A DNA stretch of 40,165 nucleotides from a virus, in IMG/VR virus record IMGVR_UViG_3300049811_000549, positions 1-40,165 of that record, one strand, 5' to 3'. Under the pieces are notes generated by a model. The model was not told the DNA's origin, did not search any database, and saw nothing but the letters and a program-made list of their open reading frames with translations. The translations under genes were made by a program, and so were the position numbers. Of the stretch, positions 1 through 40,165 are shown piece after piece. Positions within the stretch are counted from its first letter, which is position 1. The number at the start of each line of letters is the position of its first letter.

Positions 1-385
1 CCACGGTCGGGGGCTCGACCGTGGGGATAGTCCCCACGGTGGCGTGGGGATAGTCCCCACGCTCACACTCGTTCAGCGTGGGGATAGTCCCCACGGTCGA
101 CCGTGGGGATAGTCCCCACGGTCGGGGGCCGTCGACCGTGGGGATAGTCCCTACGGTCGGGGCGGGCTCGACCGTGGGGATAGTCCCCACGGTGGCGCCC
201 TCGGATTGGTACCTCTCGCGGGCCCTCTTGAGGGCCTTGGACGCGGTGCTCCGGTCCATCTCCAGGAGCTTCACCAGGTCGTTCGGGACGATCTCGGCGC
301 CGGCCCCCTTGAGCCGGAGCAGGCAGTAGGCCACCACGGCGGCGGGGCACTCCCTGGGGTTGGCCCGGTGCCAGGCGGCAAGCAT
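1..385 (-). CDS. O-like replication initiator, N-terminal part (gene continues across the window edge at 40165)
   Basis: This is the first part of a protein that most likely binds the phage origin and recruits the replication machinery, as lambda O does. An ATG at 385 is preceded by a clear GGGAGGA Shine-Dalgarno site; an in-frame ATG at 406 has none. About 65 residues form a helix-turn-helix-like domain (VPNDLVKLLEMDRSTASKAL), followed by a repetitive linker of TVGTIPTV-type peptides encoded by palindromic DNA repeats. No stop occurs before position 1. The same frame continues at 40165 into the C-terminal part ending at 39675, giving about 291 residues. The family assignment rests on architecture (winged-helix-like start, iterons inside the gene, next gene overlapping by one base), not on recognised sequence identity. 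Confidence 0.75.
   Translation of the reverse strand, partial: MLAAWHRANPRECPAAVVAYCLLRLKGAGAEIVPNDLVKLLEMDRSTASKALKRARERYQSEGATVGTIPTVEPAPTVGTIPTVDGPRPWGLSPRSTVGTIPTLNECERGDYPHATVGTIPTVEPPTV
21..190. repeat. Six palindromic iterons, candidate replication origin inside the initiator gene
   Basis: Six copies of the 17-bp near-palindrome GTGGGGATAGTCCCCAC start at 21, 44, 78, 103, 138 and 174; only the copy at 138 differs, by one base (C to T at 152). Arms of seven bases flank a three-base centre, and flanks often extend the symmetry (CGACC/GGTCG). Centre spacings are 23, 34, 25, 35 and 36 bp. Four copies read TVGTIPT in the gene, the copy at 103 reads PWGLSPR and the copy at 44 reads RGDYPH. 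Since the DNA is conserved while the frame changes, selection appears to act on the DNA. In lambda-type phages, iterons inside the O gene are the initiator binding sites of ori. Confidence 0.8.
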
Positions 386-492
386 GTTGATGTCCTCCCG
401 CTTCATCGGGGGTTCGCTTCCGGGTTTGTCGCTCGCCGCGCGTCGCCGCCCGGCCCCCGGCGCGGGCGACGCGCCGGGGGCCGCCAGTGCCG

Positions 493-4483: not shown

Positions 4484-5362
4484 TCACTGCTGCGGCGTGG
4501 CCGGCGGCGGCAGCGCCGCGGGGATGGGCACCACGTCGATGATCCGCCCCCGCCTCTCGTCGTCCACCAGGCCGAAGCGGCGGCCGGGGCCGAGCTTCGC
4601 CAGGGTCTCCGACGTGATCTCCCGGCTGATCGATTCGAGGAGGGCGGGTTGCTTCTCGACCGGGACGGACTGCTCCAGGCTGGCCCGCCTCGCGACCGCC
4701 TTCGCCAGCCGGTTGGCGGCCAGCGGGACCTCGCCCATGCGGTCCAGCGGCGTCTCCCAGGCCCGCTGGCCGAGGGCCCCGCGCAGCTCGGCCGCGGTCC
4801 GGCCGAACTGGCCGCGGTAGCCGGCGTTGTGCCAGTCGGCCAGGTCGCCGACGTCGGCGCCGTCGGCCAGCATCCGGGCGCGGTCGGCCTTGTTGGCGTC
4901 GAGCTGCTTGACGCGCTCGCAGGCGGTGGCGGGGTCGCACTTCAGCCTGCGGCGGACCTTCTCGGCCCGCGGCATCTGGTATGTGCCCGTCTTCCGGAGC
5001 GTCGGGAGGATGTGATGGAACACCCACCTGCGGAACTGCTCGGCCTCGGGCTTCCGGCTCGTGAAGATCAGCCGATAGAGCCCGGGCTCATTGACGACAA
5101 GCATCTGCTGCTCGCCGCCGGGGGTGTAGACAGCTTCTACCCCCTTCTCGTCCTCGGCCACCTGCTTCGCGAGGGTGTCTCGCGGGTTCTGGATGTCGAG
5201 GATCCGGCAAACGTCTTTGGCGACCCACCAAGGCTCGCCGTTCTTCATGACGACCCGCACCTTGCTGTCTTCGTACGGAAGACGCAGGACGGGGTCTCTC
5301 GGCCTCTCCTCGATGGGGTTGCCGAACAAATCGAGTTCGCGCGGGGCCTTGGCCTTCGTCAC
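4484..5362 (-). CDS. BRO-N domain phage antirepressor
   Basis: Phage antirepressors of this type bind DNA or the lysogeny repressor and favour lytic growth. In this 292-aa protein residues of about 24-128 are a BRO-N domain, with PWWVAKDVCRILDI (44-57) and NEPGLYRLIFTSRKPEAEQ (91-109) followed by FRRWVFHHILPTLRKTG. The remaining 165 residues are a basic, mostly helical C-terminal domain I do not recognise; it is not an obvious KilA-C/ANT domain. The start is GTG at 5362, just after the small regulator gene ending at 5366. It is the second gene of the leftward early operon. Confidence 0.9.
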   Translation of the reverse strand: MTKAKAPRELDLFGNPIEERPRDPVLRLPYEDSKVRVVMKNGEPWWVAKDVCRILDIQNPRDTLAKQVAEDEKGVEAVYTPGGEQQMLVVNEPGLYRLIFTSRKPEAEQFRRWVFHHILPTLRKTGTYQMPRAEKVRRRLKCDPATACERVKQLDANKADRARMLADGADVGDLADWHNAGYRGQFGRTAAELRGALGQRAWETPLDRMGEVPLAANRLAKAVARRASLEQSVPVEKQPALLESISREITSETLAKLGPGRRFGLVDDERRGRIIDVVPIPAALPPPATPQQ

Positions 5363-11617: not shown

Positions 11618-13039
11618 TCACTCGGGCCCCTCGACGACCAGCCGCCGCCTCACCTTGTCGTCGCGGTTCTTCGGCTTGCTGATCTGCTCCAGCAGCTTGT
11701 TGGTCTTCTGCTGCTCGCGGACCATCTGCTTGGCCGGGTCGTCGCCGCCCTTGAGGGCGTCGAGCTGGAGCCGGCGGGCGCCCTCGAGCGGGTCGGTCCA
11801 CTCGGACGCTAGGGCCGATTTGCGGGCGAGCCCGGCCGCCGCCCCGGCGCCGGCCATCCTCGCCGCGGCGGCCAGCGTGGCGGCCATGCCCCCCGCGCCC
11901 GAGCCGCCGGCGGCCCCCGCCCCCGCCGCCGCCAGCCGGCTGGCGGCGGGGGCCGATGCGGGCCCGGCGGCGGCGCCGCCCATCGCGTTCAGGGCCGCCT
12001 CCACCATCGACTCGCGCAGCCTGTCCGACGCGCCGGTCAGCCTGCCGAAGACGGGGATCAAGCCACCCAGCGGGCCGAAGAACCCGCGGAGCAGCTGGCC
12101 GCCGACGTTGCCCTCGTCCATCGCCGCCGCGGCGGCCGACCCGCGCACCGTGCCCCTCGTGTCGGCGGCCAGCATCCTCGTCGCGCCGATCGCGCCCTGG
12201 AGCGCCCCGGCGAAGCCCTCGACCACGCCGGTGTCGAACGCCGACCGGAACGCGTCGTTCAGGTCGCCCGCCAGGCCGACCAGCTCCCTCATCGCCGGCA
12301 CCAGCTGCTCGCCGATCTCGACCTTCAGCTCCTCGAAACGGCCCGCGAGCTCCTTCTGGCTGTTGGGCAGGCCCTCCTGCGTCCGCTTCAGGTCGCCCGA
12401 CGCCTTGGCCAGCCCCTGGGTGATCAGGCTGGCCCGGGCCATCACCTTCTGCTGGTCCGTCAGCTTCTCGCCCACCCGGGCGATCCCGGCCCGCAGGGCC
12501 TCGGCCTGCACGCCCGCCTCGGACAGGTTGACGCCGAACGCCCGCAGCGGCTCGGCCTCGCCGACCAGGCCGGCGCGGATCTTCTCCAGCGCGTCGGCCA
12601 CGGGCACGTTGTAGAAGCTCGACGCGTCGGCGGCGAGCATCACGAGCCGCTGGGAGAGCTCGGCCGAGGCCTCGGCCGAGAGGCCCATCCCCTGGGTGAT
12701 CAGGCCGAAGTTCGCGGCGGCGTCGAGCGAGACGTTCTGGACGATCCCGAACCGGTCCGACAGGTCGCGGGCGAAATCCTTGACGCCCCGCGCCGAATCC
12801 CCGAACGTGACGGAGACCTTGTTCATGGTCTCGGCCAGGTCGGCGGCCTTCTGCGTGGCGTCGAAGAGGAACGCCGTGGCTGCGGCCGCGCCCGCCCCCG
12901 AGGCGATGGCGAACGGGATCGTGAGCGTCGACCGGGCCGAGGCGGCGAACTGGCCGAGCCGCCCCCGCACCGTGTCCAGCTTCCGGCCCAGCGGCCGGTC
13001 GTCCCCCAGGATCTCGACGAACAGCTCGGCCAGCTTCAT
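11618..13039 (-). CDS. Tail tape measure protein
   Basis: Tape measure proteins fix tail length and pass into the host during infection. This one has 473 aa. It opens with MKLAELFVEILGDDRPLGRK, has a hydrophobic stretch near 40-60 (IPFAIASGAGAAAATAFLF), and the family's FGVNLSEAGVQAEALRAG motif near 175-192. An Ala/Gly-rich low-complexity region lies at about 350-410, with a charged end. By the rough rule of 1.5 angstrom per residue the tail would be about 70 nm, which is short. It directly follows the G/GT chaperone pair apart from an inserted plus-strand gene. Confidence 0.9.
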   Translation of the reverse strand: MKLAELFVEILGDDRPLGRKLDTVRGRLGQFAASARSTLTIPFAIASGAGAAAATAFLFDATQKAADLAETMNKVSVTFGDSARGVKDFARDLSDRFGIVQNVSLDAAANFGLITQGMGLSAEASAELSQRLVMLAADASSFYNVPVADALEKIRAGLVGEAEPLRAFGVNLSEAGVQAEALRAGIARVGEKLTDQQKVMARASLITQGLAKASGDLKRTQEGLPNSQKELAGRFEELKVEIGEQLVPAMRELVGLAGDLNDAFRSAFDTGVVEGFAGALQGAIGATRMLAADTRGTVRGSAAAAAMDEGNVGGQLLRGFFGPLGGLIPVFGRLTGASDRLRESMVEAALNAMGGAAAGPASAPAASRLAAAGAGAAGGSGAGGMAATLAAAARMAGAGAAAGLARKSALASEWTDPLEGARRLQLDALKGGDDPAKQMVREQQKTNKLLEQISKPKNRDDKVRRRLVVEGPE

Positions 13040-38608: not shown

Positions 38609-38782
38609 TCACCTGTCGAAGAGTGTTCCCTGCTCGAAATGGTCCGCCAACGCCCGGTCGACCTCGCGTTCCAGCCGCTTGGACTCGGACAGCGCCGCGC
38701 GGTCCTCGCCCTTGGACCGGAACCACCGCCGCTGCTGCTCGCGCAGCTCCCGCACCAGCCGGTAGAACTCCTCGCACGTCAC
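38609..38782 (-). CDS. Small charged helical protein
   Basis: A 57-aa protein (CEEFYRLVRELREQQRRWFR, SESKRLEREVDRALADHFEQ), mostly one amphipathic helix. GTG at 38782 overlaps the preceding stop by four bases. It may be an accessory replication factor; unknown. Confidence 0.55.
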   Translation of the reverse strand: MTCEEFYRLVRELREQQRRWFRSKGEDRAALSESKRLEREVDRALADHFEQGTLFDR

Positions 38783-39675
38783 GCCGTCGCCCTCCTGGAC
38801 TCGATCTGCCGCCTCAGCTCCTCGCGCCGCCGCTCGGCCTCCTCCAGGTCCGCCGCCGACGGCTCGACCGCCGGGGCCGGGCCCTGCCGCCGGCCGATGG
38901 CCGCCGCGGCGCCCGGCCGGGCGGCCAGGTCGCGCATCCCGGCCCAAGGGTCCGCCTCGTACACCCGCTGCCCGAGGTAGCAGGCTCTGGCCGCCAGCGA
39001 CTCGGCGTAGGCCCGCGGCCAGGCCCCGCACCCGCGCGACGCCACCGCCTCGGCCAGCCGGGGCAGCCGATCGAAGGTCTCCATACGCCACTCGGCCCGC
39101 TCCAGGTCGCCCAGGGCCGCCCAGTGCTCGGCCACCCGGTCGTCGAGGTCCGCCTGCGCGGCCTCGGCCGCCAGCCGGGCCCGGTCGGACGCCAGGTCCG
39201 GGAAGCGGGCCGCGAGCTGCCGGTCCTTGCCGCGGTCGATCCGGTCGCGCATCCAGCGGCCGGCCGGGCAGACGCACGTCGCCGCCACCATGCGGCCGTC
39301 GGCGGGGTGGGGCGTCGACGCCAGCCCCCCGCCGCCGCAGTGGACGCAGCCGCGGGACGCCGCCTCGGCCTCGGCCCGGTCCTCGAACCGGCCGCCGGCC
39401 GCCCCCTCCTCGCGCCGGATCCCGCCAAGGATCTTCAGCAGCGCGGGCAGGTGGTCCGACAGGTACCGCGGCGGGTCCTCGGCCAGCGCCACGCTCGCCC
39501 GCTCCGCCTGGTCGGCCGTCGCGCCGGCCTTCGCCAGCGCCGCCTTCCAGGGCGCGAAGAACTCCTTGCGGGCCTGCGCGTCCTCGGGCCAGGCCCCGTG
39601 GGGGAACCGCTCCTGGTGCGCCGCGATGAAGCCGCGGAACCACAGCGCGATGTCCCGCTCGCCGCTCGTCGCCAT
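38779..39675 (-). CDS. Putative helicase-loader-like replication protein (P position) with zinc motif
   Basis: The 298-aa protein directly follows the initiator with a one-base overlap (TGATG), the O-P arrangement of lambda. Residues 1-90 (FFAPWKAALAKAGATADQAE, LAEDPPRYLSDHLPALLKIL) resemble the helical N-terminus of phage P/DnaT-like loaders. A Cys motif (SRGCVHCGGGGL ... CVCPAG) near 108-140 probably binds zinc. The rest is a charged helical region. There is no Walker A, so it is not a DnaC-type ATPase. The loader role is inferred from gene order. Confidence 0.6.
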   Translation of the reverse strand: MATSGERDIALWFRGFIAAHQERFPHGAWPEDAQARKEFFAPWKAALAKAGATADQAERASVALAEDPPRYLSDHLPALLKILGGIRREEGAAGGRFEDRAEAEAASRGCVHCGGGGLASTPHPADGRMVAATCVCPAGRWMRDRIDRGKDRQLAARFPDLASDRARLAAEAAQADLDDRVAEHWAALGDLERAEWRMETFDRLPRLAEAVASRGCGAWPRAYAESLAARACYLGQRVYEADPWAGMRDLAARPGAAAAIGRRQGPAPAVEPSAADLEEAERRREELRRQIESRRATA

Positions 39676-40165
39676 CAGATGCCCTCCAGGTCGGCCATCA
39701 GCTTCTCCCGCCACGCCGCGTAGTCCTCGCGTTTCGACGGCGGCCCGCCGCCCCTGGGGGCGCGCCGGGGCCGCGGGGCGGCCGGCGCGACCGGCCGCGG
39801 CTCCCAGGGCCCGGCCAGGTCGCGGGCGATGCCCATCAGGTACTTGAAGGCGGTCCGCGCCCTGCGGCACCGGACCTCGTGCTCGATCTCGCTCGAGCAG
39901 AACTTCCGCGCGGCCGAGGCCAGGCGCCACCCGTCCGAGGCGACCGCCACCACGTCCGCCGCCGCCGACTGCTGGCAGAGGTAGCCGGCGACGTGGCCGG
40001 TGTTCGGGTGCCCCGACAGGACCTCGACCGCCGCGGCGATGTCCTCGCGTGCGCGGGCGCAGGCGTCCGCGCCCCCGCTCGCGTCCACGCGGGCGCCCGC
40101 GGGCGCGTCGGTCGCTGTCTGTCTAACTAAATCTCCTGGCTCTTGGGGTTGATAAGGGGGGGGCT
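39675..40165 (-). CDS. O-like replication initiator, C-terminal part (continues from position 1)
   Basis: The frame enters from the left window end without interruption: codon GAG uses bases 40165, 40164 and 1, and the peptide reads PTVEPPPYQPQEPGD across the join. The C-terminal domain of about 135 residues has AREDIAAAVEVLSGHPNTGH, VASDGWRLASAARKFCSSEI, ARTAFKYLMGIARDLAG and a basic linker ending SKREDYAAWREKLMADLEG. In lambda O this part binds the loader P. A GTG at 40088 is an internal start only if the window were linear. The stop overlaps the next gene by one base. Confidence 0.75.
   Translation of the reverse strand, partial: PPPYQPQEPGDLVRQTATDAPAGARVDASGGADACARAREDIAAAVEVLSGHPNTGHVAGYLCQQSAAADVVAVASDGWRLASAARKFCSSEIEHEVRCRRARTAFKYLMGIARDLAGPWEPRPVAPAAPRPRRAPRGGGPPSKREDYAAWREKLMADLEGI
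40115..40156. other. AT-richer tract beside the iterons, candidate unwinding element
   Basis: These 42 bases are about 55% A/T, in DNA otherwise over 70% G/C, and lie some 30 bases beyond the first iteron once the circle is closed (iteron at 21-37 of the other end). Lambda has a comparable AT-rich tract next to its iterons inside O. Here it codes for the linker QPQEPGDLVRQ. Confidence 0.5.

Follow-up and report, generated by a model that had tools for sequence, protein, structure and literature searches.

A near-palindromic iteron array within a putative initiator gene of a GC-rich phage as a probable self-encoded replication origin

The DNA analysed here, hereafter the window, is the complete IMG/VR virus record IMGVR_UViG_3300049811_000549 (40,165 bases), and its per-kilobase profile gives a GC content of approximately 74% over the record. 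Searches against Pfam and PHROGs showed that it encodes a terminase, a major head protein, a tyrosine integrase, a Bro/Ant antirepressor, a YqaJ exonuclease and RecT, and this combination of terminase, head, integrase, antirepressor and recombination genes marks it as a temperate-type tailed phage. Both recombination genes are on the minus strand: the gene for the RecT-family annealing protein (1181-2062; PF03837, 4.6e-38) lies upstream of, and has the same direction as, the putative initiator gene described below, and the gene for the YqaJ/RecE-like exonuclease covers positions 2059-2955 (PF09588, 1.3e-30; phrog_434, 2.3e-66). The Bro-N/Ant-type antirepressor gene (4484-5362) is located close to this replication cluster.

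The putative initiator gene is a minus-strand open reading frame that has its start codon at 406, extends past base 1 and continues in the same frame from 40165; it encodes 298 amino acids and is complete only with the record ends joined. Its 5' part (1-406, minus strand; 135 codons) includes the probable helix-turn-helix (HTH) region (197-406) and the iteron-bearing linker (1-196), and its 3' part (39675-40165, minus strand) carries an AT-richer tract, linker and the C-terminal part, with the TGA stop codon at 39677-39675. A preliminary description of the window had placed the repeats between the HTH domain and the C-terminal domain at positions 1-200; the array does lie in the linker, but the C-terminal part is at 39675-40165 and neither in nor beside 1-200 of the linear record. 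The join is supported by the two open partial frames, which are on the same strand and meet in phase when the ends are joined directly, and by the peptide motif TVEPP, which runs on across the junction (TVEPPTVEPPP). Since the record ends have no terminal repeat of at least 10 bases and its first bases already belong to repeat sequence, the circular join is something that we infer. Along the joined gene the codon-position signal is strong-weak-strong, with GC3 values of 0.97 before, 0.80 within and 0.92 after the array, and the weaker signal in the middle is what an array maintained at the DNA level would show.

The array consists of six direct copies of the 17-bp near-palindrome GTGGGGATAGTCCCCAC within positions 21-190, all in a single orientation. 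In gene order, iterons 1 to 6 are located at 174-190, 138-154, 103-119, 78-94, 44-60 and 21-37 (all minus strand), where iteron 2 reads GTGGGGATAGTCCCTAC and has one mismatch; the start-to-start spacing, counted upwards from position 21, is 23, 34, 25, 35 and 36 bp. Every iteron forms an inverted repeat, its arms being 7-12 bp long and its centre 3 nt. Allowing for up to three mismatches, and counting both strands of the near-palindrome, we observed 12 matches compared to 0.14 expected from shuffled sequences, and 12 matches were reached in none of 100 shuffles. The first 14 bases of the record (1-14) repeat positions 116-129, i.e. the record opens within the repeat region, and it ends in a G-run (40156-40165). 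This start in repeat sequence together with the G-run at the end suggests that the assembly may have been broken or collapsed at the iterons, in which case the true copy number may be above six, and extra iterons may have been lost in the gap between the record ends.

On the coding strand the phases of iterons 1 to 6 are 0, 0, 2, 0, 1 and 0, and the corresponding peptides are TVGTIPT for iterons 1, 2, 4 and 6, PWGLSPR for iteron 3 (phase 2) and RGDYPH for iteron 5 (phase 1). The six copies with frame-dependent peptides reported in the preliminary description were accordingly recovered, at a frequency far above that in shuffled sequences. That one 17-mer is kept in three reading frames with varying spacers argues for conservation at the DNA level, as had also been proposed. 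The use of all three frames, which had been emphasised, holds in so far as phases 0, 1 and 2 are all present, but it is not distinctive: with phases drawn at random, six copies would occupy all three frames in 74% of cases, and the phases are 0, 2, 2 and 1 both for the iterons annotated in the lambda record and for the repeats that we located at the annotated origin in P22 gene 18 (the first P22 copy starts one base ahead of that origin). In the orientation used, the iteron has no stop codon in any frame, while the opposite orientation has TAG in one frame.

Linkers accept insertions in any frame, and in-gene arrays that are not conserved as DNA occur commonly at other phage loci; the repeats could be a mobile or slippage-grown palindrome that expanded in a disordered linker and has no role. 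We find this rather improbable, since the 17-mer has been kept while the spacers diverged and all copies share one orientation, which suggests selection. Moreover, the 40,165-base window has no further copy outside the array (up to two mismatches), and scans of GTDB and IMG/VR contigs with the exact paired-repeat pattern gave no relevant second array, only a single match in Prochloron and a single viral one, both unrelated. Dispersal of the repeats in host genomes, which had been put forward as the mark of an unrelated mobile element, was likewise not seen in so far as the GTDB and IMG/VR contigs were scanned with this exact pattern. Exact matches to the 17-mer in L007 and L008 and paired matches in L009 and L010 were dismissed, as all were in unrelated contexts; L007 (IMGVR_UViG_3300037770_000097), an unrelated viral contig, starts with the exact 17-mer palindrome at positions 1-19, in a context unlike that in the window.

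As RNA, each copy folds with about -14 to -25 kcal/mol, and a row of strong mRNA hairpins might affect translation or stability. However, such folding is common to any GC-rich palindrome, and no Rfam family matched in the window. Hardly any variation is seen in the 17-mer, even in its loop, whereas selection for a hairpin would permit compensatory changes in the arms, and the lambda and P22 iterons, which occupy the same position in the gene, are sites that act at the DNA level. A role as mRNA hairpins appears to us highly improbable.

The AT-richer tract, a candidate unwinding region, is located at 40107-40146 (minus strand); its AT content of 47.5%, compared to 26% on average, ranks it among the top 1.25% of all 40-bp windows. 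It is beside the array only if the record ends join; across that join, the AT-richer tract adjoining the array that had been noted earlier is indeed present. The next gene (38779-39675, minus strand) starts within the stop codon of the putative initiator gene (TGATG) and encodes a protein of 298 amino acids with four helices in its N-terminal part and a middle region rich in Cys. By position only, this product is a candidate helicase loader. It matched no family in Pfam or PHROGs, including the lambda P-type loader family PF06992, to which lambda P itself was assigned in the same search (6.4e-62), and BLASTP against lambda P was insignificant (E=2.3). GC skew, which had been suggested as a check of the origin, showed no turn at the array, and since 38% of shuffles reached its detrended range it gave support neither for nor against.

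Searching with the putative initiator protein gave no match to PF04492 (Phage_rep_O) in Pfam and no O-like match in PHROGs, while lambda O (5.7e-36) and P22 gp18 (6.9e-38) were both recovered with PF04492 in the same search; BLASTP against lambda O was insignificant (E=0.83). This supports the initial impression that the protein is apparently unrelated to phage O proteins. Judged by its sequence, it cannot be assigned to the lambda O family and is best read as representing a new lineage, outside the detectable O family. Relatives of the protein were found neither by tblastn in phages or plasmids nor in 28 complete records that carry RecT or terminase relatives, nor by peptide-pattern scans of IMG/VR, which need exact 8-residue matches and could miss distant relatives; such scans of IMG/VR with the downstream gene, or with RecT alone, led to none either. 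One match to the C-terminal part (L155; phmmer, 2.7e-5) was rejected as Arg/Pro-rich and derived from an apparently non-coding frame.

The structure model of the N-terminal part is of low confidence (pLDDT 62-83) and has helices at residues 3-15, 22-33, 41-48 and 52-70, which is compatible with an HTH, and fold searches using the low-confidence models gave no significant match. The best sequence leads were to MarR/SlyA HTH proteins and not significant; the MarR_2 match was weak and below the cut-off. Leads to this class of regulators would also suit an array that is a control site (operator or partition-like), recognised by the encoded HTH protein or some other regulator of the phage, e.g. for the early operon, as would the palindromes with their 3-nt centre, which fit any dimeric regulator, and the nearby antirepressor gene. 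Operators are, however, usually found at promoters, and the array is approximately 220 bp inside the gene; moreover, an origin would better explain six sites that adjoin an AT-richer tract within a cluster of replication and recombination genes. We consider a control site unlikely.

It is established that the origins of lambdoid phages can have four or six iterons midway along the O gene, beside an AT-rich tract (PMC7466680). The window shares with lambda O/ori that the iterons are placed mid-gene in the initiator gene and use all three frames, that the AT-rich tract is on the C-terminal side of the array, and that, as for lambda O and P, the next gene overlaps the stop codon of the initiator gene. 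Lambda O has its HTH in the N-terminal half; the N-terminal helices modelled for the window protein would fit an HTH. The likeness to lambda O/ori noted in the preliminary description is in this respect supported, with a putative HTH at the N-terminus, the iterons in the linker, the AT-rich tract, the C-terminal part and the overlapping next gene following in the same order. In contrast, lambda has four 18-bp iterons spaced 20-24 bp apart and the window six 17-bp iterons spaced 23-36 bp, the lambda tract is far more AT-rich (78% compared to 47.5%), and lambda O and P have no detectable sequence relation to the window proteins. The repeat had also been called unrelated to that of lambda; its sequence does differ, but this is expected anyway, as the lambda and P22 iterons already differ from one another. 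P22 gene 18, an initiator gene with four in-gene repeats and an origin annotated there, resembles the window in its layout and differs in that its product is a PF04492 O-family member and its iteron is another one; it is followed by a DnaB-type helicase gene, where the window has the candidate loader gene. The Shiga-toxin phages P27 and 933W have six iterons inside O, the two extra iterons adding 13 residues to the protein (PMC7466680). Likened from the literature alone, their origins match the window in having six in-gene iterons but encode true O-family proteins and carry lambda iterons.

On these grounds we regard the array as probably a self-encoded lambda-like replication origin, lying in the linker of the gene for its initiator. 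The iterons cluster inside the gene, provided that the open reading frame encodes the initiator, and the AT-rich tract is found across the record join. Our reading is based on an array that is far above chance and confined to the initiator gene, a repeat that stays constant in three frames between varying spacers, the codon-position GC that weakens across the array, N-terminal helices that would fit an HTH, the RecE/RecT recombination genes just upstream, the lambda O-P-like stop-start overlap, the AT-richer tract on the same side as in lambda, and the same layout and frame spread in lambda and P22, together with the established lambdoid origins. Against it we count the absence of a family for the putative initiator and the downstream protein, the low-confidence models, the inferred join of a record that ends in a repeat region, where assemblies often break, the lack of a GC-skew turn, and that no relative was found for comparison of the array. 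If the array is an origin, one would expect the initiator to contact the six near-palindromic iterons with an HTH domain at its N-terminus, probably with one dimer on each iteron, and the complex so formed to separate the strands of the AT-richer tract, which follows on the C-terminal side. The host helicase would then be recruited by the C-terminal part of the initiator, perhaps together with the protein encoded by the overlapping next gene.

The in-gene layout of lambda is already known, and what appears to be new here is the protein and the repeat. If our interpretation is right, a high-GC environmental phage with an unfamiliar initiator joins the list of self-encoded origins, and a replicon and an iteron become available for testing from a phage without close relatives in the collections searched. 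The case is also relevant to why phages have origin and initiator combined in a single gene, although the principle as such is already known. Somewhat doubtful, in our judgement, is the further suggestion that an initiator lineage having no common ancestry with lambda O placed the origin in its own gene independently; if true, the lambda layout would recur because initiator and origin stay together during phage recombination.

Two IMG/VR phages found by RecT, L039 and L078, encode PHROG-matched initiators that lie downstream of RecT and have an array of repeats in the linker that follows their N-terminal domain, and these linker arrays suggest that the in-gene layout may extend beyond O-family proteins; no sequence relation of either initiator to the window protein was found. 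The L039 array (12708-12851) has at least nine 12-bp units GGACGTCTCGGG, all in one frame and giving the peptide DVSG, and is a possible in-gene origin. As its repeats keep one frame they could be kept at the protein level, whereas those in the window use three frames. Long in-frame arrays of short units are also present in other phage genes, in L031 (3621-3891 and 7026-7420), L062 (1841-1933), L067 (1136-1419), L070 (6805-7056) and L076 (16203-16361), and these (e.g. RASLRASL, GARVYGEA, RDQVGAQV) look like protein-level repeats, unlike the iterons in the window.
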